DNA of 64,000 nucleotides from Zygnema cylindricum (Eukaryota > Streptophyta > Zygnematophyceae > Zygnematales > Zygnemataceae), in NCBI GenBank assembly GCA_037447655.1, contig JBBHKE010003059.1, positions 248,001-312,000 on the forward strand, written 5' to 3'. The position numbers and the translations under genes are program-made. The notes beneath the pieces are model-generated. The model had not been told where the DNA came from. It ran no database searches and was given only the letters and a program-made list of their open reading frames with translations. This document shows, piece by piece, positions 14,065-55,210 of the stretch. Positions within the stretch are counted from its first letter, which is position 1; each line of letters opens with the position of its first letter.

Positions 14065-16103
14065 TATAGTTACAAGCTCTCTTGGAGGGAAAAGATTTAT
14101 GCTTACTATCACTGATGATTAGTCTAGATACTCTAGAGTATATTTATGGAAAAAGAAATTTAAGGCTTCGGCTTATTTTAAGAAGTATAAAGAATGGAGT
14201 GAAAAGCTTCATGAGACACCTATAAAGAGATAGAGTGATAACGGGGGGGAATTCACTTCTAATAAATTTGAGGATTACTTGAAAGAGGAAGGGGTTCAAC
14301 ACTAAAAGATTGTCCCAAAGAACCCAAAACAAAACGGTGTTGCCGAGAGGCTAAATCGTACATTAAATGATTTTGCCTGTAGTATGTTGATAGATAAAAA
14401 GATATGAATTTTTTTTTGTGCAGAAGCTATGAATTGTGCTAACTATCTCAAAAATAGAGTCTTTACCTCAGCGGTAAAAGGAAAAACACCTTATGAAAGA
14501 TGGACGGGGAGAAAACCTAATATTTCACACTTAAAGGCGTTTGAAAGTCAAGTATTTAGTCTAAACACAGTAAAATCTGATTGGAAGTTAGATGCAAGAG
14601 GAAAGCCACGATACTTACTTGGGTATGATGAAAATGTAAAGGGGTAAAGAGTTTATGATCTTGGAAGAGAAGACATAATTTTAGTAAAACACTTGGTAGT
14701 TATGGATGAAGGAAAGTCCATAGATTCCTTTAAGTACACTAAACCGGTCAGAATTAGAATTGAATCCGAAGATGAGTTAGATTCAGATTCTTCTAACCGA
14801 ACTTTGGTTTAGCCTAATCTTGCAGAGGAAGAGGAAAAACTGACAGAGAGTGACCCTCTCTTAGAGTCACAACTTCCGGTTCAAACCGAGGAAGAAAACG
14901 AGGAAAGACCAGAAATGGACGATGAACATCCGGAGATGGACTCCACGGATAGGGGAGAAGGTGAAGTTGTTCAGAGAAACTCGAGATTACCCTCTATCCC
15001 AACGTCAGAGTTTGGAGGGAGGAGAAGCAGCAAGAGACTTCAAGAGGGACAAGTGAACAACAAGGTAACTAAGTTGTCACATTTGTGCAAACCCCAGACT
15101 TACTCGGAAGCAGTTAATAGTATGGAACGTAGTAGATGGGTGATAGCTATTAATGATGAGATGGCTTCTTTTATGAAAGCAAATACATGGGAGTTGGTGG
15201 ATTTTCCTCCGGGTAGAAAGCTTATAGGATGCAAGTGGGTATTTAAGTTGAAGCTCAATCCGGATAATACTATTGAGCGATATAAGGCCAGATTGGTGGC
15301 AAAGGGGTTTACACAAAATGAGGGAATTGATTATAAGGAGACCTTCGCTCCGGTTGTTAGATTTCCCTCTGTCCGGATTCTACTTAGTCTAGCGGCAGCG
15401 GAAGACATGGAAGTGCACCAGATAGAGATCAAAACCGCTTTCTTACACGGAGATTTGGAAGAAGAGATCTTCATGCGACAACCGGAAGGATTTGTGGAGA
15501 AAGGAGAAAAAAGTAAGGTGTGCAGATTGATAAAGCCCCTTTATGGATTAAAGCAAGCTCCACGGCAATGGAACAAAAAGCTAGACGAGTTTTTAACGAG
15601 TTTGGGATATATTCGAATAAGTTCCGATCATTCCATCTACTTATTTGAGGATGATGAAGGTATAATTTTCATTGCCATCTATGTTGATGATTTGCTTGTT
15701 TTGAGTAAATCAATGGAGAAAATTAATTGATTGAAAAAGGATCTTAAGAGTAGATTTGAAATGAAATATTTGGGGGAGGCAAAGTATATTTTGGGAATTC
15801 AGATGGAGAGGGATAGAGAAAAAAAAACAATTAGACTTACTCAAAAGGAAGGTATTGGGAATATGCCGGAAAAATTTCAAATGGATAAATCAAATAGTTG
15901 TACGACTCCAAGGAGCTTAAAAAAGGGAAATGAGGGGAGCTCAGAAGAGGGAATCTTGATCTTGGATAATGAGTTAAGACCTGAGGAAAGTAAGTTCATG
16001 CAAACTATTTCGTACAGACAGGTTGTCGGTAGTTTGATCTATTTTATGAATTGTACTCGTCTTGATATAGCAACAGCTGTGGGAGTATTAAGTAGGAGTC
16101 TGG
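14065..16103 (+). pseudogene. Copia integrase-RT relic
   Basis: One reading frame runs nearly the whole length. It gives the integrase core (SDNGGEFTSNKFEDYL, then KQNGVAERLNRT), the integrase tail (TPYERWTGRKPN), a long acidic linker, then RT with KWVFKLKLNPDNTIERYKAR, the start FLHGDLEEEIFM, the box YVDDLLVLSK and the connection RSL at the edge of RNase H. Stops interrupt it in the integrase, near 14645 and 14810, and at 15728 just after the RT active site. RNase H is missing because the frame ends abruptly at 16103, where the gypsy array begins. No LTR in the correct orientation is attached. Confidence 0.9.
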
Positions 16104-16461
16104 GTAAAGATTGCCATTTTACTGAAGCTATCGACTACAACCATGATACTGTCATTTTTTCTAAATGTAGGTGGCAACGTGACAATAAAATCCATACTGA
16201 CAGATTCCCATGGTCTTTTTGGGAAATCTAAAGGTTTTAACAGACCTTTAGGTTTCAGGGTAATATATTTAATTTGTTGGGAAATGACACAACTTTCGAC
16301 GTGTTTCAAAACCTTATTTAGCATCTCAAGCCAAAACAATCTACTCTTCAACCGACTTAGAGTTTTATCCCAACCTAGATATCGCAATGCAATATCTACA
16401 ACTGAAAGCACGTGGTAAAGATTGCCATTTTACTGAAGCTATCGACTACGACCATAATACT

Positions 16462-16527
16462 GTCATTTTTTCTAAATGTAGGTGTTATTTTTTCTAAATG
16501 TAGGTGTCATTTTTTCTAAATGTAGGT
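16462..16527. repeat. 22-bp minisatellite, 3 copies, in middle array unit
   Basis: The 22-bp word TCATTTTTTCTAAATGTAGG plus TG is repeated three times, the middle one starting TT instead of TC. The first array unit (16105) has a single copy, while the second and third units have three. Confidence 0.9.
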
Positions 16528-16817
16528 GGGAACCTGACAATAAAATCCATATTGGCAGATTCCCATGGTCTTTTTGGGAAATCTAAAGGTTTTAACAGAT
16601 CACTAGGTTTCAGGGTAATATATTTACTTTGTTGGGAAATGACACAACTTTCGACGTGTTTCAAAACCTTATTTAGCATCTCAAGCCAAAACAATATACT
16701 CTTCAACCGACTTAGAGTTTTATCTTAACCTAGATGTCGTAATGCAATATCTACAACTGAAAGCACGTGGTAAAGACTGCCATTTTACTGAAGCTATCGA
16801 CCACGACTATGATACTG

Positions 16818-16883
16818 TCATTTTTTCTAAATGTAGGTGTTATTTTTTCTAAATGTAGGTGTCATTTTTTCTAAATGTAGGTG
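16818..16883. repeat. 22-bp minisatellite, 3 copies, in last array unit
   Basis: This is the same triple 22-bp repeat as at 16462-16527, one array unit (about 355 bp) further on. It shows that the expansion came before or along with the duplication of the larger unit. Confidence 0.9.
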
Positions 16884-17186
16884 TGAACCTGACAATAAAA
16901 TCCATGCTGACAGATTCCCATGGTCTTTTGGGGAAATGTAAAGGTTTTAACAAACCTCTTGGTTTCAGGTTAATAGGTTTACTTTGTTGGGAAATGACAC
17001 AACTTTTGACTTGTTTCAAAACCTTATTTAGTATCTCGAGCCAAAACAATCTACTCTTCAACCGACTTAGAGTTTTATCTTAACTTAGATGTCGTAAATG
17101 CTCATGGGCTTCCTGTAAAAGTTGTTTTCTTAAGTCACCCATTTCAAGAATGCATAATCTATCCCCTGTTTGCAAATATAGTAAAC

Positions 17187-17838: not shown

Positions 17839-19294
17839 TGTCAAGCCTCCTTGGGAAACATAAGGGAATGGCCTACCGCCAAAAATAGTGTGCATTGGAG
17901 TCCTGCAAATAACCCCGAATGCAAATGCTTCCCGTGTTGGTGAGAATGCCCAATTCTACCCTTTATCCATTCCATGGAAATGCATGCAAGGTGTGGGAGA
18001 AAATACAACAGGAAATGGGAAAAAATGCATACGAGGGTGAAAAAGATACCCCCCTCCCTTTTCCATTTTCCCATCGGTCTGGGAAATGGGTTTGTGTTGA
18101 GGTAATCGCGCTGAGGTCCCATGCTGGACAGCTGAAAGTCGACCAATTGTGTCCTCAAAACCCACTGTTCTGGTACAAAAGATTATAGCAGACCGTTTCG
18201 GCGGGACTGCCGCCGAAGCCAAAAATGACTACCAAAGAGGACCAAATAAACTTCCACGCAAAAATAACAAAAATAAAATGAGTTGGCTATTTCAGATTTA
18301 ACAATATCACCTTGCCCCAGAAAATGGAATAAAAGATAGAATTAATAATGATGGTAAAGCAAGCTCAACATACCCCGCAAAGCCAAGCGGACTCAAAGAG
18401 AAGACGAAATATCTCTTGCTAGCACCGATGACCGGTACGATCGTCCTTCACACCTCGATTTTTGCAGATTGGAACTGGCTAGACTCTTTTCAATTTCAAA
18501 TGGCAAAAGTCAAGATCGCCCATTAGAATGGATAGTGCCAACCAATCGCCCGAACTACGACCTCCAAATTATACAAATTGAAACCAAGATGGCAATATAG
18601 TCAAACTCTCAAGTAAGACAAAGATTCTCCAAAAGATGGTTTGTTTAGAATTTTATGAGGGATTTCACAGCAGTCACTACTGAAACAGCAACCTGTCTCT
18701 TTCGGACCCAAGTGCCTTATGCAGCAAAGTTTGTCCAATTTTAGGTCCAAACGTCAAAGCCATGCTACAAACCAATTAGCAACAAGCAAATGTAACTAAA
18801 CTGACATAAGACAAAATAATTTGTACTAGACTTGAGGTAAAAAGTTATACTAGATCCGCGGCCGGAAGTAATTATTTGTTCCACTATTATAAGATAAAGT
18901 AATGGAAAAAGACACGAAAGTGCCAGAATTTGACCTAAGGTAATTAATGGACCGAAAGTTAGTTGAACCTCAACTAAATTCCTATTGACAGCTAGTAGAA
19001 TAATCTTGACGACAATCGGAAAAGTTAGGTGGCCATCCACAATGTACCCCCCACGAGGGATGGCGCAAACTAGTCCCATATAACGAAATCGCAATCTTTG
19101 AGACAATAGAACTTGGTTGTCCCACCTCCTTTAGGCGCGAAATAAAGTACGTACCGCTCAGTTTAGGAAATACAAGGATTTCTTTTGGCTTGGTGCACTC
19201 CCTCTCTTGTACTCTGATGACCGCACAAGTTAGAAAGGGTTCGGAAATCCTTGGTAATATAAAGGTGTGCCGGAAAACGCACACAAGCTTGACA
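17839..19294 (-). repeat. gypsy 3' LTR
   Basis: It runs from TGTCAAGCC to AAGCTTGACA, 1456 bp. Positions 18120-19294 match the 5' LTR at 27009-28192 over about 1.18 kb with scattered differences. The leftmost 280 bp have no counterpart in the 5' LTR but recur at 19308-19580. Confidence 0.75.
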
Positions 19295-19307
19295 GCAATC
19301 GAGCGTG

Positions 19308-19580
19308 CATGGGAAACATAAGGGAAGGGCCCACCGCCACAGATAGTGTGCATTGGAGTCCTCCGATTAACCCCGAATGCGGATGCTTTGGGTGCTGGTG
19401 AGAATGCCCAATTCTTCCCTTTATCTTTTCCGTGGACATGCATTGAAGGCGTGGGAGAAAATAGAACAAAAAATGGGAAGAAATCCATAGGAAGGTGAAA
19501 AAGATACCCCCCTCCCCCTTTTTTTTTCCCATCGGTCTGGGAAAAGGGTTTGTGTTGAGGCAATGGGGTTGAGGCCCCAA
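19308..19580 (-). repeat. duplicated LTR-end segment beside gypsy 3' LTR
   Basis: This is similar to 17850-18118. Both contain GGGAAACATAAGGG, AGTGTGCATTGGAGTCCT, GAGAATGCCCAATTCT and CCCATCGGTCTGGGAAA in the same order. It lies between a G-rich run on the minus strand (about 19581-19592, possible polypurine tract) and the 3' LTR. It may be the end of an older LTR copy. Confidence 0.7.
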
Positions 19581-19622
19581 TTTCCCCCCCTCTTAGTCAA
19601 TCGAGACTAAGACATAAAATAA

Positions 19623-21130
19623 TTATCCGCCCAATTCGCAGTTCCCGCAGAACCTGGTGTATGAGGGCTGAATGTGTGGCTCCAAAGAGGCGGGAAGACA
19701 TGATTGATGCCACCACTGGCTGCAGTGATTGCAGACCAAAACGTTGCAAAGCTGGGAGGACAAATTACAGGTGGAGGAACAAGAAAGAGGGTCACCAAAG
19801 TAAGTTAGATAGAAGGTGGGTTCGTCTTCTAAACCTCGAAGGTGGCAAGGGGCAACATTGATTTGATTTTCCTTAATTTTTTGGCCATCTTTCCCCTCCA
19901 AGGTAAGAACTCCCTTGTTAGTAACCTGTACCACTTTGAAGATCACTTGGCCGGCAGAAATAACCAGCGTGTCCTTCTTCTATTGCATTTTGTACACAAA
20001 ATCCTCGGGCATAAACAATCGTTATTGTGGCACATAATTTCCGCTCCTTCGTTGGGAATACCACAGCTGATCCTAGTGTTGAGACGCTTGTAAATTTCCC
20101 ATGGCGAGAGGCATCTCTTGGTGGAATAATTTAGCTCTGTCAACGATCAGTTTTTTCACAGTCCCTTGGTCATCCATTTCTAGGAGAACCACCGCTTGGG
20201 CCTAGGCAACCCCGGGCACGATGGGATGTCGTCCAAATAGGATGAAGTAAGGGCTATCTGAGTGGAGGGAAGCTTGCCGGCTAAACCTGTATCCCATGGC
20301 AATCCACGGCACCCTTTTTCCCACTCCCCCACATCTTATTCGATTGCATATTTTCGTAGTGACCGCTTCACTGTTTGGATGCACCTTACAGCCAAGTCGT
20401 CGGCTTGTGGGTGGTCCCGAGTGGTTAGCCGGTGGTCGATGAGGCATTTCTCCAATAGGTTGGAAAATTCTCCAGCAAATTCGGACCCTAGGTCGGTCAA
20501 AACCTCTGATGGCGCTCCGAATTGCGATAACACTCTCTGCAAAAAAGCATCAGCAATTGACTTCGACTCTTTCCCAAGCAAAACCACCAACTCTATCCAT
20601 TTTGAAAAATGTTCGATCATGACCAGCACGAATCGATCCCCTTGTCTGCTGGTTGGTAGAAGCCCCAACAGATTGAAAGACCATCGATAAAACATTCCTC
20701 GGATGGGTGGAGAGTGAAGCTTGGTCTCGCCTTTATTGTCAAAAGATGCTTTCACTAGATCGCAAGAAGAGCAAGTGTGTACAATCTGGTTGACTAAGGT
20801 CCGCAACCCGTGCCACTAATAAGATCATACAACCACAGAAGTGGTCATTTTTTGTCCGAAGTCTTCGCGTTTTTGATGAAGGCGATTGATCAGAGTTCCT
20901 CAATCTAAGGGGGGAGGAACCACTTTCCTCGTCTCGTCCGTCCATTTTCGAAGGAGGATGCCTCGGTCCCAGTTATACGCCGCCATTCGGGTCTGAACAC
21001 GGGACAATTGAACTTCAACAAGATTGGAGAGAGGGGATCCTTGCTGAATGGATTGGATAGATTCACAGTCATTCCAAATATCCTTTCTTCGAGCTACTAT
21101 CAGCGCTTGCCCCTCCACGTCTGTCGCATA
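19623..21130 (-). pseudogene. gypsy integrase with C-terminal PHD-like finger
   Basis: Reading leftward, the integrase core shows CSSCDLVKASF (end of the zinc domain), FVLVMIEHFSKWIELV, GAPSEVLTDLGSEFAGEF and HPQADDLAVRCIQTVKR. It continues as PWIAMGYRFSRQASLHS and LFGRHPIVPG. The C-terminal SH3-like part has VQVTNKGVLTLEGKDG. After about 40 residues a cysteine cluster follows: CSSTC, then VCNHCSQWWHQSC, then FCGNCE. Its C-x2-C-x4-H-x2-C core and late C-x2-C fit a PHD finger, a domain that usually reads histone H3 tails. The frame ends at about 19623. Frameshifts near 20150-20200 break the joint between core and tail. Confidence 0.8.
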
Positions 21131-21151
21131 AGTCGACAGCTCCCCGCGAGC

Positions 21152-22830
21152 TTAGGGATTCCAGATGAAAGGGGAAGAGGCTCGTATAAGTCCCAAACTG
21201 ATTTCCGGTTCCTCATCGTGCCGTGCTCTGGTAGAATCCAAGGTAGAGGGATCTTTAATTCGGCTAAGTCCGTCGGCATTCCCATGGATTTTTCTTGCCC
21301 AGTGGATAATAGTGCAATCATTTTCCTGCAGGATTAAAACCCATATGGCGAGTTTGCCGGTTAACTTACTGTTTTCCATGATCCATTTAAGAGGTTGATG
21401 GTCCGTAATCAGTGTGACCCAGATCCTGTATAAATAGGGCCGGAAATGCTAGATTGCCTAAACAGTTACAAAGAGCTCCCTATGTAACAGCTGTAGTTTC
21501 CCTCTTCACTGTTGTTACACCTGCTGGCGTAAGCCACCACATACTCAACTCGGGCGTCATCTACTTGAGCCAAAACTGTCCCTACTCCAAACCTGCTCCA
21601 ATCATTGTAAAGGAGAAAAGTTTTCTGGTGATCACGCATCCGGAGCACGGGGTGTTGCTGAAGTGCGTCCTTCAAAAATTGGAAGGCAATCTGCTGCTCG
21701 TCGGCCCACTACCACTCTTGGTCCTTCCGCAACAACTGATTTAAAGGCTGGGCGTAACTGCTAAACTCGGGGATGAACCTCCGGTAGTAGTTTGTCAAGC
21801 TAAGAAATGTTGGAAAGGCAAAGATGTCATGTGGTGGAGGAAGGGCGTCAAGGGCGGCCACCTTGACCATATGGGGGCCCACTGTCCTGGAGGTCACTTC
21901 AAGTCCTAGGTAAATAATTTTATAAACCGAAAATACCTTTAACTAGGTGTCACTTCAAACCCGGTGCTTGAAGTGTCTGGGAGACAATCTGGACATGCTC
22001 CAAGTGTTCCTCGAAGGTACTGGACAAGATGATGACATCATCGATGTATAACCGGACAGAATAAAATCCTCGGAAGGCTTTGTCCATCGCCTGTTGGAAT
22101 TTTGCCGCTGCATTATTAAACTCGAAGGGAATGTATATCCACTTGTATAACCGAGAACCTGCCCAAAATTGAGTCCTCTCCCGGTGCTTCGGCTCCATGG
22201 AAATTTGGTGAAACCCATTCTTCATATCAAGAGTGGAGTAGATGGTAGCCCCTCTAAGAGAGTTCAAAATCTCTTCCGGGGTTGGCATCGGATACCGGTC
22301 GGGGATGGTGGCAGTGTTCAGCATACGATAGTCCCCACACATCCGAAAATCTACCATTTTTCCGGACGCATCCTTCTTCAGAGAGAGAACAGTTGGGGAA
22401 GCAAACCCATGGAGATCGGTACTTTCTTGAACCAATTCGGCTTCCACTAAGGTTTGGACTTTAGCGGTGATAAACTCCTTTTCCTTGAAGCTGAGAGGAT
22501 ACTGCTTCTGCCAAACGGTTGCTGTCTCGTCTATAAGGTCAATTTGGAACGGAGTTCCTTTGTAGATGCGAAGGTTTATTTCTGACTGAAGAATACCTGC
22601 TTATTCCTTACTAATAGTTGTGATAGCTGGGCCTTCTCCTGAGGATCCAACTGTTCCCCCAAGGTCCAATCCATTTTCCCTGGCTCGATTGCTGCCCATG
22701 CTTCCGGAGGTCTACCCCTAAGAGTAATGTCGACATTCGATCCTACCTCGGGGTCTACTTTTTCCCTTCCGGCTAGGACTTTATTGTTGACAACTTCCGA
22801 TAAGCTGTCCCATTTTTAGCCGTCGCTCCC
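21152..22830 (-). pseudogene. gypsy reverse transcriptase and RNase H
   Basis: The pre-RT segment (about 22830-22600) reads LRGRPPEAWAAIEPGKMDW. RT proper shows FASPTVLSLKKDASGKMVDF, CGDYRMLNTATIPDRYPMP, TLDMKNGFHQISM and the active box RLYIDDVII near 22040. The connection shows LTNYYRRFIPEF. The RNase H-like part reads FLLYNDWSRFGVGTVLAQ and later HWARKIHGNADGLSR. The element falls in the ordinary Ty3/gypsy range by these motifs. Several stops and frame changes occur (for example near 21930 and 21450). Confidence 0.9.
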
Positions 22831-22929
22831 CCCCACTAGAGAAACCCTTCCGTGTGGAATTTGACTTTTTCTTCTTTCTCTCCCCCCCTAAAGCTACACT
22901 GTTGCTTGCGTTGCCTAGAATTGAGGAGC

Positions 22930-24907
22930 TTCAAGGTAAGTATTTCGCAATTATGGGGACTCGAGATTGGAAAAGGCAAGAGCATACTTGAAAACCCATG
23001 TGACCGCGTTCAAGTCCATACTTTGTCCTATGCGGTTGCACCTTTGGAGGTCTGATACACCTGGTGCCGCCGTGGTGTCTGGATAGAATCCCATGGCTTG
23101 CTCCCTTTTCGCAATTGTCGGTGTTGTCCATATCCGTGTTGTCTGATCGAAGATTATTCGCACTGCACCTGTCCGATAGGCGTGACTTTGCAGAAAGGAA
23201 ACCAAAGTTAGAAGGGCTCAACGGGGAAATCCTGGCTTGTTGCATTTGAATAAGGGGTAATGATCGGTTTTTGTTACGGGCGTTGCCATCCGCCCCTTCT
23301 TAAGAATTTGTTGCATAGAAATTTGGGGGTCTGAGATCTCTTTCTCCAAGAGTTGCCTGTGGAGGGGGAGCGAGATCAGATTTGTCGAATAAGCTCTAAC
23401 TATGTGACCCGAGATCCCATCTGTGCCGCATCAAAAATGAATGGAGATCCTAATATCTGGGTGACCTGCTTCCAACTGTCCGCTACATGTTGTCGCGGAT
23501 CCTCCCCCGGGTGGACATTCTCCAAAACGTACCCAGTGGTGTGTTCTGTGTTGAAAAAGGGTATTTTATATTTTATCTTTTTGCTCTATGGTTGCTCTAT
23601 AGTTTTCATACTTGTTGTAGTCACTCAGGATTACAAGGAAGCGATGGTTATCTCAGGCAGATAGGAAGGGAAGAAGACAAGCAAAAGACAAAGCCCCTGC
23701 ATAAGGTTGCTAACTGTAGGATTTGATCTTGAGACCTATGGATAATTGCCGTACGGCGTAGCCGTTAGCTTTATCCTACAAGTCTTGATGAAACGATGCT
23801 TAGATTGTATGTGATAATTATTTAATTCATGACACGACGACATATGAAACAAAATGAAACGTGAAAGGTACAGTATCGCAGGAAATATTGTACCATACGA
23901 AACATCATTTAATTTTCAACGGACGAAATCTAATGTCGTTCGCGATCGACGGCTCGCAGAGGAGCCGAAATTCCGTAGTGGACATTTGGCAGTTTGAAAG
24001 CCAATGTCGGTGGATGACATGTGGCGCGATATGGTTGGACGACGGATATTACGAGGGGGGCAACTACAGCTCAAGAACTGACACGCGTCAGGGGAGCGGC
24101 CATACCGTACTATGGTCGTACAAGAAGTACACTGGTACTTATACCTTCTTGTACCTTACAGTCTTTTGATTAGTTAGGGTACACTAAAAGTAGGTTTAGA
24201 GAGGGAGCTTAGGACTTAGGAAAAATCAAGGTAGCCGCCTCTCTCCCAGAGTGCTTTTGTATTTGAAGGCCATCTTTGGGCGGCCATAACTTAATGCTCG
24301 GGTGAGCAATTTCAATGATTGTTTTTGCTGCGCACTCAAGGGAGTCGAGGCTACTCATTGGTGTTGTCGGTCAGAGTTTTTTCGTCCAAGGTTGGGACCT
24401 ATTCTATGCCAAAATCAAAAGTGCAAATATTATCCTAGAGGCTTTACATAAGGTGGACATTGTGTGTTCCAATGGAGGTCACAGAATTACATTTAGGAGA
24501 TGTTATATCTATGAGATTAACTAGATCATCTGGAAAAATGTTCTACTTCTCCTGTTTGCATGCCGTTTTCCTTGTCACGTTAGGGAGTATCCTTGACAAG
24601 GCCATCCCGCCACCACCAGATCTACCCTTTGTAGACTGGCCTAATGGGGTGTCAATATGTTATCCACATTTTGGGGAAGACTTCTGTGAGCTTTGGAGAT
24701 TGCGGACACTAAGAGTTGTTGAGGATATAGTTGGTGAAGTTGGTGTAAGCATTGTTCGCTGACGGCTCGTGCAGCGGGTGATATTTCCACCGCAGCATAA
24801 GCTTCCACCGTGTATCTTGCCCTCAATAATGCCTCCAAATTAGTGCAGATTCGAAAAATTAGTGATAAAATCCGGAGTCTTGAATCGGGAACGGTTAATG
24901 ACACCAC
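22930..24907 (-). pseudogene. cytosine-C5 DNA methyltransferase domain in gypsy element
   Basis: The right piece (24907-24492) has a motif I region RLRILSLIFRICTNLEALLR with VEAYAAVEISPAARAV, and motif IV DLVVAGWPCQGYS, with the catalytic Cys codon within the PCQ at 24593-24601. The left piece (23548 to about 22930) has motif VI GYVLENVHPG (ENV near 23514-23525), motif VIII FIFDAAQMGSR (about 23409-23440), and motifs IX-X KREQAMGFYPDTTAAPG and IGQSMDLNAVTWVF. The family transfers methyl groups to cytosine C5. The domain sits between protease and RT. A solo Copia LTR (23549-24491) splits it. Motif I has lost its usual F-x-G-x-G and several stops are present, so it cannot be active as it stands. 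Confidence 0.88.
23549..24491 (+). mobile_element. solo Copia LTR (family A) inside methyltransferase
   Basis: The LTR begins TGTTGAAAAAGGGTATTTTA and ends ATGGAGGTCACAGAATTACA, 943 bp. Its order of blocks is the same as in the LTRs of the gag-only element (50746 and 53909). The flanks TTCTG (left) and TTTAG (right) match at three of five positions, which could be a decayed duplication. No internal region is attached, so it is a solo LTR. Confidence 0.75.
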
Positions 24908-25171
24908 CTGTCGCTTGAGTTTCTCATTATTGGATATGATCTATGAAGATTCTGAACGAGGAACTGAAAATATTCTGTTCGGTGATATATCCGAAAAAGT
25001 ACGATCCACTTTCCGCCGAAGTGAAGTCATTTATAACAATTGGTCATATATCCTTCTTCTTATCGCTTGGAAATCAGGAACTACTAGCAAAAAGTTCTAC
25101 GGGAGAGGATGTTGTATAACCAAGGTAACAGCCGGACACATGGGCATTTGTCTTCCCTCTATTCCATAAAT

Positions 25172-25675
25172 TCAAGGGAACCACCACCTGGGACCCTTCA
25201 TGTTTTCGGGGTCTCGGACTGTAAACTGTTCCTTCCACACACTTAACTCCATATTAAGCCTGGTCCATGTGGCCATCCCCAGCAGTATTTCAAACTGCTT
25301 CCCTTCCACCACTAAGAAGGGGAGGCGGATTCTAACTCGTTGGCGTGCGTCATCGGAGAATTCAATATCCATAGCCTTGATGATTCAATGGACTGGCTGA
25401 CTCCCGTTGCTAACTATACTCAGGCTGATGTTGCTTGGAAGGATTTCTGACCGTAATTCCTTGGGCATCTGTTGTAAGGCAAAAGTTGTAATTAAATTTG
25501 GGAGCGCATCGGTATCGACCACTGCGTCTTGATAACCTTTGTAGCCATTGAGCTTGAAATTGCCAGTTCGGTTGAGGATGAGGGCCAGTGATAATGCCTT
25601 GTAATCCATATCTATCATAGGGGTCTTGCGATCCGTCGATAAAAAGACGGAACGGGGTTGCTCTACCAACGCCAC
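25172..25675 (-). pseudogene. gypsy aspartic protease region
   Basis: The frame gives NGYKGYQDAVVDTDALPNLI, where DTDA stands in place of the DTGA active-site word, then after a stop LPFLVVEGKQFEILLGMATW, the usual C-terminal I-L-L-G-M-x-x-W signature of a retropepsin. The two halves are in different frames, joined near 25375. About 80 residues of low similarity connect it to the methyltransferase. Confidence 0.75.
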
Positions 25676-25852
25676 TTTCCCCTGTCCAAAGTGGATCGCC
25701 TCTCCTAAAAGAAGGAGCTACCTATCCCCTAAAGATCCCTCCAAATCTCCGTCTAGCCTCCCGAATGAGGAACACTTCCTGTTCTAGTGCTTGCTTCCTT
25801 TCCTTTCAAGAGCCTCCCAATCTATACTGACAAGTCCGGCCCCCGCCGTAGC

Positions 25853-26890
25853 CTAACTCTGCGACTGCAGGATATCAACCCTTTTCTGTGTGCTGCTCAC
25901 CACACCTGAGAGATCCACAATCCCCAAACCCGGTACCTCGGGGTCTGTGGGTCTCGAACGCCACAACCCTTCGGAAGGTCGAACAATTGGTGCTGATGGA
26001 GACAGGGAGCTCGAAGAGAATGAGTCGGAAGGGAAAAACGGCTCCTCTTTAGATCGGAGAGCAAATTTGTCTTTGCATCTCAGTGGTTGAACCGGTGCAC
26101 CCTCTTCGGCTCTGGTAACCTCCGCCTGCTGGTTATTTCCCCGACCCGGGCCCCAAAGGTCGCCCTGCCCCAAGACAGTCTGCTAGTAGCAGTGTTCTGA
26201 GATTGGGTGGGCTGCTGGTGTGAAGTTGATGGCATTCCTTGTTGCTCTTGGACTGAGGTTGAAGTGCTGCTCTTGAACCAACTGCTCACTATTTCCACTT
26301 CACCTCCCAATAGGCATACGTTCCCGGCTCGGTCTTTTCCGTCTACCCGCTGCACCAACTCCTTCTTAACTTTCAACTCATGGAGTTTGTGAAGGGCTAA
26401 GATTTCCTTCCGACCTAGCTGGTTAGGATCGGCCAAAATCTTAAGATCCATATACATCTCAACTATTGGAGCCTTAGATCTTGTATAGCGGCCTACTTCG
26501 GGAGTTTGGCCAGGGACCGCTTCCTTATGGGCGAAACCCTTCTTGCGTGATTTAGGAGACAACGTCTGTCTCTCAATCTTCTTCGCGGCCCAAGCCTTGG
26601 CAGCCTCGGACAATGTAGGGAAGTTCTTGGGAGAATAGACTGGCGGAGGTGGAGGAGAGAGTTTCCTCAGTGGCTCTTTTGGAGGAGTCTCAACTATAAC
26701 AGCCTTAGGCATCATTCTTTTTAGAAACTGCTCTATGATTAAATTTGAAGCCATGGGGACTACTTCCTCGGGCACCTATGACTCTTCCTCCCGTGGAAAC
26801 GTATCCTGACTACCCTGCTCCTCAGATCCGATTTCCGGAGCTCTTTTTTCCTGAGCTTCTCCCCCTCCCATCGAGTGATGGCTCACGAAC
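25853..26890 (-). pseudogene. gypsy gag-like N-terminal region
   Basis: An ATG at about 26890 opens a frame beginning MFVSHHSMGGGEAQ, with one TAG at about 26775. It then continues as a proline- and lysine-rich protein to 26080. A frameshift leads to a Ser/Pro-rich part (26173-25853). I recognise no capsid domain and see no CCHC zinc knuckle, so the gag label rests on its position ahead of the protease. Confidence 0.55.
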
Positions 26891-27008
26891 ATAACTGTCA
26901 GAACTATCGGTAACGAGAACCCTAACTCCTCTCAAGAACTAAGGGTCCCAAATTTAGAAGCTCGTATCCCCTCTTATCTGAAGGAGACAAGTGGTTGTTT
27001 CAGTGCTG

Positions 27009-28192
27009 TGCTAAACAGTTGAAAGTCGACCAAATGTGTCCTCAAAACCCACTGTTCTGGTACAAAAGATTCTAGCTTTCCGTTCTAGCGGGACTGCCGC
27101 CGAAGCCCAAAATGACTACCAAAGAGGACCAAATAAAATTCCACGCAAAAATAACGAAAAAAAAAAATTTGGCTATTTCAGATTTAATAATATCATGATG
27201 CCTTGAAAATGGAATAAAAGATAGAATTAATCATGATGGTAAAGCAAGCTCAACATACCCTGCAAAGCCAAGCGGACACAAAGAGAAGACGAAATATCTC
27301 TTGCTGGCACCGATGACCGGTACGATCGTCCTTCACACCTCGATTTTTCGCAGATTAGAACTGACTGGACTCTTTTCAGTTTCAAATGGCAAAAGTCGAG
27401 ATCCCCCACAAAGATGGATAGTGCCAACTAACCGCCCGAACTACGACCTCCAAACAATACAAATCCAAACTAAGATGGCAATAGAGTCAAACTCTCAAGT
27501 AAGACAAAGATTCTCCAAAAGAAGGTTTGTTTAGAATTTTCTGAAGGTTTTCACATGAGACATTACTGAAACAGCAACCTGTGTTTTTCGGACCCAAGTG
27601 CCTTATGCAGCAAAGTTTGTCCAATTTTAGGTCCAAAAGTCAAAGCCATGCTAGACACCAATGAGCGACAAGCAAATGTAATTGAACTGACATAAGACAA
27701 AATAATTCGTACTCTACTTGAGGTAAAAAGTTATAACCCTGAGTGCGACTAGATCTGCGGTTGGATGTAATTATTCGTTCCATTATTATAAGACAAAATA
27801 CTAGAAAAGGACACGAAAGTGCCAAACTTTGACCTAAGGTAATTAATGGACCGAAAGTCAACTGAACTTGAACTAAATTCCTATGAAAAGCTAACAAAAT
27901 AATCTAGACGACAATCCGAAAAGTTACGTGGCCATCCACAATGTACCCCCGACGAAGGCTGGTGAAAACTAGTCCAATGTAACGGAATCGTAATCTTTGA
28001 GACGGTAGAACTTGGTTGTTCGGCCTCCGTTAGGCGCAAAATAAAGTGCGTATCTCTCACTTTAGTAAATACAAGGATTTTGTCCGGCTTGGTGTACTTC
28101 CTCCTCTGTACTCTAATGACCGTACATGTTACAAAGGGTCTGGAAATCGTTGGTAATATAAAGGTGTGCCGGAAACGCACAAAAGCTTGACA
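27009..28192 (-). repeat. gypsy 5' LTR
   Basis: It matches 18120-19294 throughout, including ACCGATGACCGGTACGATCG and GGTAATATAAAGGTGTGCCG, and it ends with GCTTGACA at the junction with Copia A LTR sequence. The inner end near 27009 lacks the 280-bp segment present in the other LTR. No primer-binding site of the common TGG type follows it. Confidence 0.75.
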
Positions 28193-45260: not shown

Positions 45261-46346
45261 TCAACATGTCGATCTAAATACAACCCTTCCTCCTACCACA
45301 GATGTCGATACACTGCAATAATATTCCACAAGTTTTCTCAGTGTATATATTCCCGTAAGTCCTGCGTAATATGTGGGGCACCCGTTAACAACACCACCAG
45401 AACAAGTACCCAAAATAATTCCTGAAGGATGTAAAATGGGTCCCCCACTCATCCCTCCTTCTACAGAAACCTCCTCGCAAAGAATGCTGGAAGAAAGTCC
45501 GCTGCACCCAGTCACTTGAGCTTTATCCGCAACGTCGAAAGTGAGTGCACTCCCACCGCCCGTTCTTCCGGGATACCCGTAATTTGTTCTCGGAATCATG
45601 GATGGAGAAGGAGCTGACCACGGAAGATTTTGAGAAGTGAGTGCGCTGTCCAAATACAAAACGGCGACGTCACTCCCTGCTCTGAGAGACTCTTGCCACG
45701 TGTTGTGATTCTGATAGCCAACGTAAACAATGCCGTCACTCGCGTAAACAGAGCGCACGCTGGAGTCCGATGCTCCGTTCCGTCGAGCGGAAACTAACAG
45801 CGGGCTTCCCGAACCGAAGTACCAGTAGTTATCTTCGGTGTCGTACAAACAGTGAGCCGCCGTCATAACAATTCGTGACGAAAGTAACGCGCCGGAACAC
45901 AAGGCGACCCAGCCGCCACCATTCCAGATTCTCAAAGAGACAACTGCGGAAGAAATGCCAGAATCTTCAAAGGTTGGGACAACTACGGAAGGAGGAGTTC
46001 CCCTATTGCATCCGAAAAGTTGACTTGCTTGATTAATATTCCCCGACTGGTTGGCATTAATCGAAGCTTTACCTCCGTTTGTGAAAACTATTTTGGAGGG
46101 GTTTCCGGGGGAAGGAATGGTCTTGTAACCGATAATAGTGTTGATCTTGGCGCGACTTTGCCACAGCGCTGACTTCTGGTAATTGATTTTGGTTTTGGGC
46201 TGAGGAACAGAACTAGTGGGAGGAGATTCGAGCAACTCTCGAGGATCGGATTCCGTGGCACATACGAGCGAGGAGAGAAAAAAAATAGTTAAAACCGGTA
46301 ATAGAATGGATGCGACATTGGGAAATAGTTTCCGAAGGAGAGCCAT
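45261..46346 (-). CDS. secreted trypsin/V8-like serine protease
   Basis: A single-exon frame of 361 residues. I chose the ATG at 46346 because it begins a strong signal peptide (MALLRKLFPN, then a hydrophobic core to about residue 30). The open frame extends upstream, but only from a TTG. After a propeptide-like region (31-115) comes a chymotrypsin-fold domain with the triad His165 (TAAHC), Asp226 (GSDVAVL) and Ser300 (GGMSGGP). Ten cysteines suggest disulfides, consistent with secretion. The arrangement is like glutamyl endopeptidase or V8-type S1 proteases, though the cleavage preference cannot be read from this. All key residues are present and there are no stops. The gene is intronless and surrounded by retroelements. 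It may come from a retroposed or transferred gene, but that is speculation. Confidence 0.88.
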   Translation of the reverse strand: MALLRKLFPNVASILLPVLTIFFLSSLVCATESDPRELLESPPTSSVPQPKTKINYQKSALWQSRAKINTIIGYKTIPSPGNPSKIVFTNGGKASINANQSGNINQASQLFGCNRGTPPSVVVPTFEDSGISSAVVSLRIWNGGGWVALCSGALLSSRIVMTAAHCLYDTEDNYWYFGSGSPLLVSARRNGASDSSVRSVYASDGIVYVGYQNHNTWQESLRAGSDVAVLYLDSALTSQNLPWSAPSPSMIPRTNYGYPGRTGGGSALTFDVADKAQVTGCSGLSSSILCEEVSVEGGMSGGPILHPSGIILGTCSGGVVNGCPTYYAGLTGIYTLRKLVEYYCSVSTSVVGGRVVFRSTC

Positions 46347-46490
46347 CCAGAAAGGAAAATGAGGGGAAATGTTAGCGGAAGAGCGAGAAAAAGTAAGGAG
46401 AGTGGTAGAGGGAGAGAGAGAGAGCGGGAAGGAGCGGGCGACCGAACGTATTTTGTAAAACTTGACGTAACCCGACAATATTTATGCACT
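46347..46490 (-). promoter_or_regulatory. 5' region of protease gene with TATA-like box
   Basis: The minus strand has GCATAAATATTG about 130 bp upstream of the ATG (plus 46475-46488), a plausible TATA box. Between it and the ATG is a CT-rich leader (the GAGAGAGAGAGAG run on the plus strand, about 46411-46424). Confidence 0.45.
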
Positions 46491-50499: not shown

Positions 50500-50745
50500 A
50501 GGCAATTTAACTTTGTGGCACCACCGTATGTGACACACATCCGAGTCGAGTTTACGACGCATGATTAAAAATGGAAGTCTAAGGGGATTAGACTTAGCGT
50601 CAAAGAGAAAATTAACGGGTTTGAGGGATGTTGTAAGGGGAGACAAATCCGAAAGCCGCATTCAACCAAGTATACAACGCATCGATCTAAGCATCCGTTT
50701 GATCTTGTGCATATTGATTTATGTGGAGACGTAAAACCGGAGACG
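50500..50745 (+). pseudogene. Copia H integrase N-terminal part
   Basis: Pre-integrase words LWHHRM and HTSESSLRRMIKNGSLRGLD are followed by HPFDLVHIDLCGDVKPET at the insertion edge (50745). One TGA lies between the words, and one frame change comes before the core. Confidence 0.75.
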
Positions 50746-50937
50746 TGTTCATTTTTATGTATTTTCTAGGTCTGTTTTATTATAGAAAAAGAGCGGAGGC
50801 AGTTTGCCTCTAACTCCCTTCTCCAAGCCTCCACACTTGTTGTAGTCACTGAACGCAAAACAGGGAGCTAGAGTTATGGCTGCCTAGGCTCTATTTTGAA
50901 ACAGGGTGTAGAATTGGTAGACTTACCAAAATGGTAT

Positions 50938-50980
50938 TTGACGGATCTAAGATTTGATCCTCGTACCTACCGTCCGTCAA
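50938..50980. promoter_or_regulatory. LTR hairpin (5' LTR copy)
   Basis: TTGACGGAT and GTCCGTCAA form a 9-bp stem with one mismatch and a 25-base loop. The same structure occurs in the other LTR at 54095-54137 and in Copia A at 28371-28415. Confidence 0.5.
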
Positions 50981-51658
50981 GTAACCTGTAGCTGTTAGCC
51001 TTATCTGTTTAGTCTATGACTAGTGCTATGACATATTTGGTTTGGTAGATATTTAAATAGTATCTAGTAGGTTTTTTCATTTAACAAGATTACGGTTAAT
51101 AGGGCATAAAAACAATTGTACTTTAATGTACAGACAAAACAAATAGAATGGACATTTGTTTCGACGGTCCATATTAAATGCCGAAATAAATCAAACGGTT
51201 GTGGTTAGCGCCGACTTCGCTAAAGGACAATATGACGGTTTGCAGATATCGCCACTCCAGATAACACGTGGCAACATCATACGGGTTTACAGAATATTCA
51301 GAACGGAAGATAACAAATCCAAAAGTGACAAATGTTGCAATATGGCATTGTCGTACAAAGTCCGTACAGATAGTACTCCGGCACCTGTACTTTCTTTTAC
51401 GGTACAATTTTTCTGACGTGGCATGACTTGGTGCCACATGGAGAGATAACATTTGGAAGTCGAAATTCAGGGGATTATAAAAACTAGTCCCGATATTACA
51501 TGTGTTGATTTTTTAGCTATGTTGTACGATGGCCGTAAAAAAGGTACACTGGTACCTGTACCTTTATGTACTATTCAGTAATGTGATTGGTCCATACCTC
51601 AGTACTAGGGGGTTTAGATATTTTGGGAAGGTAGCAGCCTCTCCCAAAGAGCATCTTG

Positions 51659-51667
51659 TATAAAAGG
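51659..51667 (+). promoter_or_regulatory. TATA box of gag-only element 5' LTR
   Basis: TATAAAAGG follows CATCTTG. The same box is in the 3' LTR at 54836-54844. It lies about 350 bp before the gag ATG. Confidence 0.6.
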
Positions 51668-52012
51668 CAAACTTTGGCTAGCCCTAACTATTAATTTACT
51701 TGACCTTTTTCTGTGATTATTTTTACTGTAGACTCAAAGGAGTCCACGCTACAGAGAGGTGAAGTAGGTCAAAGTTTTTTCCTACCAGGGTGGCTGCATT
51801 TCTAAAGGAAAGTCAAAGTGGGTGAATGTGTCCAAATCTCATATTCTAACTTTACATTCTATGGTGGAACTAAGCACACAAAAAGTCTTATTTCACGAGG
51901 TGAAGCTGTAATGGGGTTATGATTATCAAAGGATCATTCATTTAGGTTTATATAAACTTGGAGTCGGCACTATATAGATTAGCTTCTTTGGATTTGGGAA
52001 TTCTGTGTGGAA

Positions 52013-53190
52013 ATGGAGCCTAAAGAATTTCAGGTTATGGGCCCACCATCTAGGGTGCCTATGTTTGATGGAACAGACTTCACTTATTTGGAGTTTAGGA
52101 TCGAGGGATTGCTTTTCGAAAAGCACTTATAGGGAATTGTTTCGGGACAAGTGAGGTGTCCGCCACAGGGCTTTGTAGGAGCTTACTAAAGAGAATCATT
52201 AAGGGCTACCCAAAAAACCAACCGGAGTTCAAATGCAACGGAACATGAAGGGAAAATCATTACGGTGGAAAAGGAAATAGGGGAGAAGGATAAAGGGACA
52301 CCTATGGTGATGGGAGCTACGCTCTCGGCTACGGTTCCACTTATGGGGGTTATAAGTGAACCAAAAACTGAAGAAAATGAGAAAAAAATTGGGAATATAA
52401 AAACACTAACGGAAAACATCTTATACTTAGATATGTTTCTAAGTCCATAGCTATCACTCTTTTAAATTTAACCAAGTCTTCGGAAAATCTGGGAAACATT
52501 AATTCAAATTTATAAGAGTGAGACTATACGGAGGCAACAGTTAGTAAAACAAGAAATAAAGGCCTATGTTTATAAAGGCGGTAGCATGACAGAGTTTTGC
52601 AATGATATTGCAGCGTTATATGTTGAGCTTGCTAGTGCGGGATACGTAGAATGTGAGGAGAGAAATATAAATACACTAATCATGAAACTCCTATATGAGT
52701 AGGAGAACATCATTTACTGTATATAGGGAATAGACGGCTCCTCATGGACTTGGAGCATTACCATGGGGATAATTCTTGTGAGGGAAAGCACTTTGGAGCT
52801 TCGTAGGGGAATTAACAAGGTGAATGCATTTACAGTTGGTGGTGACTGGCTGAAGCGTGATGAGAAGAACTGCGGTGACGAGCGGAAGCGTGATGAGAGG
52901 AAGAAAGACAAAGGTAGACCTTATCGGAACTTTGGTGGAAAGATAGGGCGAGGAAAACAAAGGGGAGCTTTGAAAAAAGGGGTTTGCTTCTTTTGTAGAA
53001 ATCCGGGTCACTATATGGAGGAGTGTCCTTGGTTGGAAGAACTTAGAAGTTGGAGTGTGAATGAGGAGGAAGAAGGGGAAGAGGAGAAAAATGATGAAGA
53101 AATCTTGGAACTTCTTCACATCGGTAGAACGGAAAAAGAGAAAAGTACACAAAAATTCCACGAAGACAACATTGTGTTTTTGGAGGTATA
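52013..53190 (+). pseudogene. gag of gag-only element
   Basis: The ATG at 52013 lies inside the LTR, and the frame reads through the primer-binding site into GPPSRVPMFDGTDFTYLEFR, a typical Copia gag start. Later parts include RRQQLVKQEIKAYVYKGGSM and FCNDIAALYVELASAGYVE. A CCHC knuckle CFFCRNPGHYMEEC lies at about 52987-53028, preceded by a basic region. Stops interrupt it near 52130 and between 52440 and 52740, so it is not a single open frame. It should act as an RNA-binding coat protein if any copy is intact. Confidence 0.8.
52033..52048 (+). promoter_or_regulatory. half-tRNA primer-binding site
   Basis: GGTTATGGGCCCACCA directly follows the LTR. It is the exact complement of TGGTGGGCCCATAACC in the anticodon arm of plant-type initiator methionine tRNA (from memory). 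This position and type is known from Drosophila copia and yeast Ty5, which prime with an internal tRNA fragment. Confidence 0.8.
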
Positions 53191-53778: not shown

Positions 53779-53908
53779 TGCATTGTTTTAAATACGAGAG
53801 TAAGTTTTATGAAAGAAAACCGAAAAGGAAAAAGAAAAAGGAAAAATGGGAAGGGGTGCTTTTTTTTTGTGGGAGTTTAGAGGAAAACAGTCTAAAAAAT
53901 AACGAGAG

Positions 53909-55210
53909 TGTTGATATTTATGTATTTTCTAGGTTTGTTTTAGTATAGAAAAAGAGCAGAGGCAGTCTTCCTCTAACTCCCTTCTCCAAGCCCCCACACT
54001 TGTTGTAGTCAGTGAAGGGGAAGCTAGAGTCATGGCTGCCTAAAACTCTCTTTGGAGACAGGGTGTAGAATTAGTAGACTTACCAAAATGGTATTTGACG
54101 GACCCAAGAATTGATCCTCGTACCTACCGTCCGTCAAGTGACCCGTAGCCGTTAGCCTTATCCATTTAGTCTTGGACTAGTGCTAAGACATATTTGGTTT
54201 GGTAGATATTTTAATAGTATCTAGTAGGGTTTTACATTTAACTAGATTACGGTTTTTAGGGCATAGAAACAGTTGTACTTTAAAGTACGGACGAAACAAA
54301 TAGTATGGATATTTGTTTCAACGATCTGTATTAAATGCCGAAATAAATTAGACGGTCGTGGTAAGCGCCCGCTTGGCGGAAGGACAATTTGGCGGTTTGC
54401 GGACCCCGCCACTCCGGATGACACGTGGCAACATCATACAGGTTTACGGAATCTTCAGAACGCAAGATAACAAATCCAAAAGTGACAAATGTCCCAATAT
54501 GGCATTGTCGTACAAAGTCCGTACTGAAAGTACTCCGACACCTGTACTTTCTTGTACGGTACAGTTTTTCTGACGTGGCATGACCTAGCGCCACGTGGAG
54601 AGATAACATTTGGAAGTAGGAATTCAGGGGATTATAAAAACTAGTCGGGATATAACATGTGTTGACATTTTAGCTATGTCGTAAGATGGCTATACAAAAT
54701 GTACACCGCTATTTGTACCTTTATGTACTATACAGTAATGTGATTGGTCCATACCTTTGTACTAGTGGGTTTAGAGAGGGAATTAGGACTTAGAATATTT
54801 TGGGAAGGTAGCAGCCTCTCCCAAAGAGCATCTTGTATAAAAGGCAAAGTTTGGCCAGCCATAACTATTAATTTACTTAACGTTTTTTCATTGATTCTTT
54901 TTGCTGCGGACTTAGGGGAGTCCACGCTACACAAAGGTGTATTCGATCAGAGTTTTTTCCTACCAGGGTAGTTGTATTTCTAAGGGAAATTTTAAGTGGG
55001 TGAATGTGTCCAAATCTCATATTCTAACTTTCCATTTTGTGGTGGAAATGAGCACACAGAAAGTCTTATTTCACAAGGTGAAGCTTTAATGGGGTTATGA
55101 TTGTCAAGGGGTCAATCATTTGGGTTTATATAAACTTGGAGTCGGCACTATCTAGATAAGCTTCTTTGGATCTGCGAATTCTGTGTGGCAATGGAGCCCA
55201 TCAAATTTGA
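53909..55210 (+). repeat. gag-only element 3' LTR
   Basis: It starts TGTTGATATTTATG, matches the 5' LTR throughout, and ends ATCAAATTTGA (the CA end changed to GA). A TATA box lies at 54836-54844, and the hairpin TTGACGGAC with GTCCGTCAA at 54095-54137 is perfect here. Confidence 0.88.

Follow-up and report, generated by a model that had tools for sequence, protein, structure and literature searches.

A degenerate gypsy-type retrotransposon with a DNMT3-class domain in pol and split direct repeats from the streptophyte alga Zygnema cylindricum

Retrotransposons that carry their own DNA methyltransferase (DNMT) have been published from Klebsormidium and from dinoflagellates (PMC5890265). According to the sections of that report available to us, the Klebsormidium nitens element KnitGypsy-Dnmt3 combines gypsy domains with DIRS-style repeats in the order A-coding-B-A-B and encodes its DNMT inside the Pol ORF (PMC5890265; de Mendoza et al. 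2018), and SymbioDIRS-Dnmt3 of Symbiodinium is a DIRS-class element with a tyrosine recombinase. In the literature searched, as far as its accessible text extends, we noticed no report of DNMT-bearing gypsy elements in other streptophytes. Here we describe an element from a 64,000-nucleotide stretch of Zygnema cylindricum DNA, hereafter the window, that belongs to a rare kind known earlier from another alga close to land plants. It is very probably an old, dead element with a Ty3/gypsy-type Pol and a DNMT3-class domain between a protease-like stretch and the reverse transcriptase (RT), one that counts as a distant member among the KnitGypsy-Dnmt3 kind and whose host, a streptophyte alga, is not Klebsormidium (Table 1). 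Directly observed are a DNMT ahead of the RT, gypsy-type RT, RNase H and integrase, and A-coding-B-A-B repeats.

With KnitGypsy-Dnmt3, as described in the accessible sections, the window element shares a DNMT3-class domain in a gypsy-type Pol, the DIRS-style repeats and a charophyte host; it differs in its host lineage, in being dead, in a DNMT that shares about a third of its residues with the K. nitens-like group, and in its motif VI, which reads ENV instead of EHV. Its likeness to SymbioDIRS-Dnmt3 consists of a DNMT3 in Pol and split repeats, whereas a gypsy-type RT and a DDE integrase set it apart from that element. General Pfam scans of the pol pieces, not aimed at this domain, showed no tyrosine recombinase. 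The original prediction had raised the prospect of a new lineage or a new position in pol. The former is upheld by the host and by the divergence of the DNMT; the latter is not, since the DNMT of KnitGypsy-Dnmt3 already lies inside the Pol ORF, as far as the published description could be consulted, and K. nitens-like relatives also have theirs before the RT. The novelty is therefore the different host lineage, the element type itself being already published (PMC5890265, in the sections available). Further new points are an ENV form of motif VI, a probable PHD-like finger closing the integrase, and a polypurine tract and termini suggesting that what is integrated is the reverse transcript in circularly permuted form.

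Table 1. Features of the DNMT-bearing element, in positions of the window
Feature	Position	Strand	Basis or remark
Whole element	17839..28192	-	blastn self-comparison; layout A1-coding-B1-A2-B2
Repeat A1, 5' terminus	27009..28192	-	starts TGTCAAGC, ends AGCA
Open frame, gag position	26080..26775	-	no Pfam match
Protease-like stretch	25201..25717	-	by-eye likeness only
DNMT, N-terminal part	24512..24919	-	tblastn with P0008, P0003, P0001 and others; degenerate motif I to motif IV PCQ and next stretch
Dispersed repeat inserted in DNMT coding region	23551..24494	+	matches 13.3-14.1k, 17.2-17.6k, 51.5-51.8k, 54.7-55.0k
DNMT, C-terminal part	22954..23558	-	tblastn; motif VI ENV to REQAMGF...QSMDLN end; frameshift near 23406-23418
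Reverse transcriptase	21929..22600	-	PF00078 4.2e-19; Ty3 RT chain 1e-30
RNase H, two pieces	21152..21708	-	PF17919 2.4e-19; PF17917 2.5e-8
DDE integrase, two frames	20202..20815	-	rve 6.6e-9; Ty3 Gag-Pol chain 1.1e-9
GPF/Y-like integrase tail (by eye) and PHD-like finger, one open frame, pol end	19623..19979	-	PF00628 0.0037
Polypurine tract AAGAGGGGGGGAAA	19581..19594	-	directly ahead of B1
Repeat B1	19295..19579	-	ends CGATTGC
Repeat A2	18122..19294	-	starts TGTCAAGC, ends AGCA
Repeat B2, 3' terminus	17839..18121	-	ends GCTTGACA

Along the minus strand, a frame in gag position is followed by the protease-like stretch, the DNMT, RT, RNase H, the DDE integrase, and the tail with its finger. 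A Ty3-like RT and RNase H, with the integrase downstream of RNase H, make the element Ty3/gypsy type by its Pol. Identity of the RT to the relatives, the only sequences compared, is 36-38% for three longer matches and 30-36% for the others in alignments of at least 90 residues. The protease-like stretch has no Pfam match, and BLASTP to one relative (P0010) gave E 0.25; of the claim that a gypsy element carries its own DNMT between protease and RT, the place before the RT is borne out and the protease is a likeness by eye only. Stops and frameshifts occur throughout the coding region, with the RT and PHD frames among the single stretches still open, and one copy of the DNMT element is known here, within the 64-kb window.

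With relatives as queries, tblastn recovered the DNMT in three minus-strand pieces (24919-24512, 23558-23406 and 23418-22954) that nearly coincide with the two intervals given in the original prediction, 24492-24907 and 22930-23548. The read-through domain matched seven proteins in the database, with E values from 1.6e-37 to 2.9e-24, and, in a comparison which that prediction had also proposed, PF00145 at 3.3e-7 (30.5 bits, over the curated threshold of 22). Its account of ordered motifs I, IV, VI, VIII, IX and X stands in part: the order along pol of I, IV, VI and X is canonical, motif IV reads AGWPCQG, and motif VI reads YVLENVH (~23531-23510, within the C-terminal half), but motif I is found in a degenerate form (SLIFRICTN), and the sequence of motif VIII is broken. 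The canonical, unpermuted order and the profile scores rule out the DRM class. The stretch ~24494-23551 was considered as DNMT coding and rejected; it is a dispersed-repeat copy with matches elsewhere in the window, and the insertion, which splits the DNMT, came later than the element. To judge from its sequence, the DNMT of this copy cannot be active, because motif I is degenerate, stops are present and the domain is interrupted by the insertion.

Among structure chains, those of DNMT3A/B/C were the best matches (9.7e-21 to 7.4e-16) to a 12-sequence profile that includes the window DNMT. The same profile matched 4onj (5.8e-9) and 4onq (3.1e-8), both named 'DNA methyltransferase' and presumably tobacco DRM, as well as DRM2 (1.4e-7), the bacterial 3g7u (5e-7), HhaI (1.3e-6) and DNMT2 (2.6e-4), and no chain named DNMT1 reached 1e-3 with it. 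By profile the domain is assigned to the DNMT3 class, with DNMT3A/B as the best match. Placement in a tree of DNMT classes had been suggested as well; our tree had human DNMT3A beside the relatives and viral loci. An alignment-based second search (E up to 1e-5, scoring the 7977 candidates with most shared words) returned 48 proteins, two of them named as K. nitens: a 'putative retrotransposon protein, partial' and 'hypothetical protein KFL_014220010, partial'. Among relatives P0001-P0051, 37 of 51 show the motif VI pattern and 14 gave no match; its form is EHV in 32 of the 37, KHV in one, EYV in one, and ENV, as in the window element, in three (P0001, P0002, P0003), which may or may not be retrotransposon proteins. 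P0004-P0051 are chiefly metagenomic proteins resembling the K. nitens retrotransposon DNMT, and EHV occurs in 32 of the 34 with the pattern. A scan of IMG/VR with the DNMT profile gave 16 loci, taken for phage enzymes and serving as outgroup only; a scan with an RT profile produced 120 pattern matches, none of them a relative. A structure model of P0001 (16 sequences) had a mean pLDDT of 56, too weak for use.

That a host DNMT gene or a processed copy landed by chance in an ordinary gypsy element is highly improbable. A single copy was seen, which is what speaks for such an accident, but the DNMT lies immediately before the RT on the same strand, and single ORFs of relatives join a DNMT to RT (P0026, P0045), a DNMT end to RT and RNase H (P0050), or a protease-like stretch, by eye, to a DNMT (P0010), although none of the relatives' ORFs inspected holds protease, DNMT and RT together. 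One of the two K. nitens matches is, moreover, named as a retrotransposon protein, and the likeness continues into the linker ahead of motif I, where P0008 37-168 aligns with the window piece. With its position inside pol, the fusions in relatives and the K. nitens homologues, the DNMT belongs to the element, as had been claimed. A weightier alternative, though one we consider rather unlikely, is that a DNMT3 was taken up separately from the Klebsormidium element and that the likeness in position is convergence. A tree was built from the window DNMT, human DNMT3A, 19 of the 51 proteins and 8 of the 16 viral loci. In it the window groups with P0002, P0001, P0003 and DNMT3A (five rows, 98/99), while 16 rows that are K. 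nitens-like stand elsewhere, and a reduced set with two viral rows returns the identical group at 96/93; the ENV motif as against EHV, and an RT at most 38% identical to relatives, point the same way. The DNMT3A branch is very long (2.64), and long branches run across the whole tree. Against separate uptake, both elements have the DNMT inside pol together with the same unusual repeat layout, a constraint that makes the retro-type and related rows one clade survives the AU test (p-AU 0.101), and on removal of DNMT3A the 20 retro-type and related rows unite against the 8 viral rows at 98/98. These trees, whose rows include no streptophyte host DNMT3, are compatible with one capture as well as with two.

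The repeat layout could itself be accidental, if the B at the 5' end of an ordinary LTR element, its LTR being B-A, was lost and another B was acquired downstream. Three features suit this explanation: the polypurine tract lies directly against B1, B-A has TG...CA ends like an ordinary LTR, and the terminal GCTTGACA is missing at the end of B1; we nevertheless think it quite improbable, since the element has inverted 8-bp ends (TGTCAAGC and GCTTGACA) with its two outer limits at the same B/A junction, both flanks match one repeat unit, and the same layout is described for K. nitens in the published sections available to us. The copy as it stands is not filed as an ordinary LTR retrotransposon, which would have a complete LTR at each end; here the 5' end is A and the 3' end B-A-B.

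We treat A-coding-B-A-B as the layout of the element. By blastn self-comparison, A1 and A2 are 87.6% identical over 1187 columns (K2P 0.122) and B1 and B2 84.7% over 281 bp (K2P 0.172), a divergence from which it follows that the copy is old. The termini adjoin TACT and TACC, a possible 4-bp duplication with one mismatch. One and the same dispersed repeat unit, consistent in order and orientation, matches the left flank (28600-28294) and the right flank (17623-17297) at 70-72% and 67-75%, the stretches adjoining the element aligning weakly (11-base matches, E 0.5-0.8); copies of that repeat are frequent in the window, so the flanks may come from two different ones. Counting against the terminus reading, TGTCAAGC occurs eight times in the window on both strands, with about two expected. 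Taken together, these observations support, without proving, the start of A1 and the end of B2 as the limits of the element.

The polypurine tract precedes B1 and not A2. If plus-strand synthesis started there, the reverse transcript would have B-A at both ends and the integrated form would be its circular permutation. Priming at the tract would give DNA with repeats ordered B-A (TGGG...AGCA), this DNA would close to a circle, and integration of the circle at the B/A junction, with ends TGTCAAGC...GCTTGACA, would produce the split repeats; we infer that the DDE integrase would carry out this last step. The B1/A2 junction, at which B1 ends in CGATTGC without the GCTTGACA end, counts against the model.

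Elsewhere in the window, the only host locus considered is an ABC1-kinase gene within ~9283-2845 (minus strand; exons joined by eye). Its closest relative among the matches listed is a transcript-derived protein at 93-94%. Of the 2557 proteins within an E limit of 1e-100, the kinase tree uses 27 chosen from the 120 listed, none of the rows being named Chara or Coleochaete. A 99/98 split places the window, Klebsormidium, three further rows and three algal rows known by gene codes, which we take to be Spirogloea, Mesotaenium and Chlorokybus, on one side, and 20 rows, including every named embryophyte, on the other; a six-row group with the presumed Spirogloea and Mesotaenium has 92/93, a value not starred. 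On this gene a land plant is rejected as host, Klebsormidium does not fit either, and a streptophyte alga, probably of the Zygnematophyceae, is indicated. Repeats are plentiful. A 1.3-kb dispersed repeat is present in two direct copies, 86.6% identical (50740-52020 and 53904-55198), and stretches related to it lie on either side of the gypsy-type element and within its DNMT. At 16103-17159, starting where a copia-like frame ends, a 355-bp unit is present in about three copies arranged head to tail, the later ones being 95% and 78% identical to the first. Copia-like frames, recognised by eye, lie at 14.2-16.2k, 28.8-31.6k, 33.5-35.1k, 38.2-42.9k, 43.8-45.0k and 48.9-57.8k; copia elements are put at 29.8% in Zygnema cf. 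cylindricum in the published text available (PMC11096116).

The finger at the integrase end is probably PHD-like. Its match to PF00628 (0.0037, 17.7 bits) falls below the curated threshold of 24, the best PHD-bearing PDB chain reached 0.013, and its C/H spacing agrees by eye with C4HC3, the first pair excepted; a model of this stretch alone (pLDDT 40) was too weak for use. Chromoviruses are gypsy elements with a chromodomain after the integrase. The window element resembles them in having a chromatin-reader-like module at the integrase C-terminus; instead of the chromodomain it has the PHD-like finger, and in addition a DNMT in Pol. The PHD gene of PMC3286476 is, in the accessible text, a host gene close to an insertion.

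Made as part of Pol, the DNMT would travel with the RT particle and would methylate the element's own new DNA, which would then be read as host-like or silent chromatin, a scenario that we find plausible without favouring it. The original prediction described retroelement DNMTs as shown to methylate CG de novo. In the consulted sections of PMC5890265 this holds for SymbioDIRS-Dnmt3, but no methylation was obtained in yeast with the K. nitens enzyme, a result its authors call inconclusive. In the window element, C-to-T differences pooled over A1/A2 and B1/B2 number 20/197 at CG, 23/159 at CHG and 55/850 at CHH (against CHH, p 0.09 for CG alone, 0.0017 for CHG alone and 0.0017 for CG+CHG), with transitions at 98/1676 A and T sites. 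The pattern fits plant-type host methylation; these pooled differences give no sign of a CG-specific mark, the excess being found at CHG as well. CpG o/e, at 0.72 in the element as against 0.80 in the window, 0.50 at the kinase locus and 0.56-0.90 in four copia stretches, lends no clear support to CpG depletion as a trace of self-methylation. Taken by themselves, the B repeats have low values (0.52 and 0.45). The highest value among the 18 regions measured, 1.05, belongs to a 406-aa open frame at 45261-46481 (minus strand) that by eye resembles a secreted trypsin-like serine protease.

A broader picture, speculative and in our judgement unlikely to hold in full, is an old streptophyte-algal gypsy-type lineage that joined an ENV-type DNMT3 writer mid-pol to a PHD histone reader on the integrase and to DDE integration at the repeat junction of a circle. 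If true, a DDE integrase acting on the circle junction would account for split direct repeats with no need of a tyrosine recombinase, and the termini yield a model, open to test, for the origin of such repeats in an element whose integrase is of the DDE type. Because the K. nitens enzyme gave no sign of activity in yeast, in the published text available, the ENV branch is attractive for asking about self-marking. A second charophyte lineage with a DNMT in pol and the same odd repeats suggests that the arrangement is old, has arisen twice or has spread between algae, and that it is less likely to be a curiosity of a single genome.
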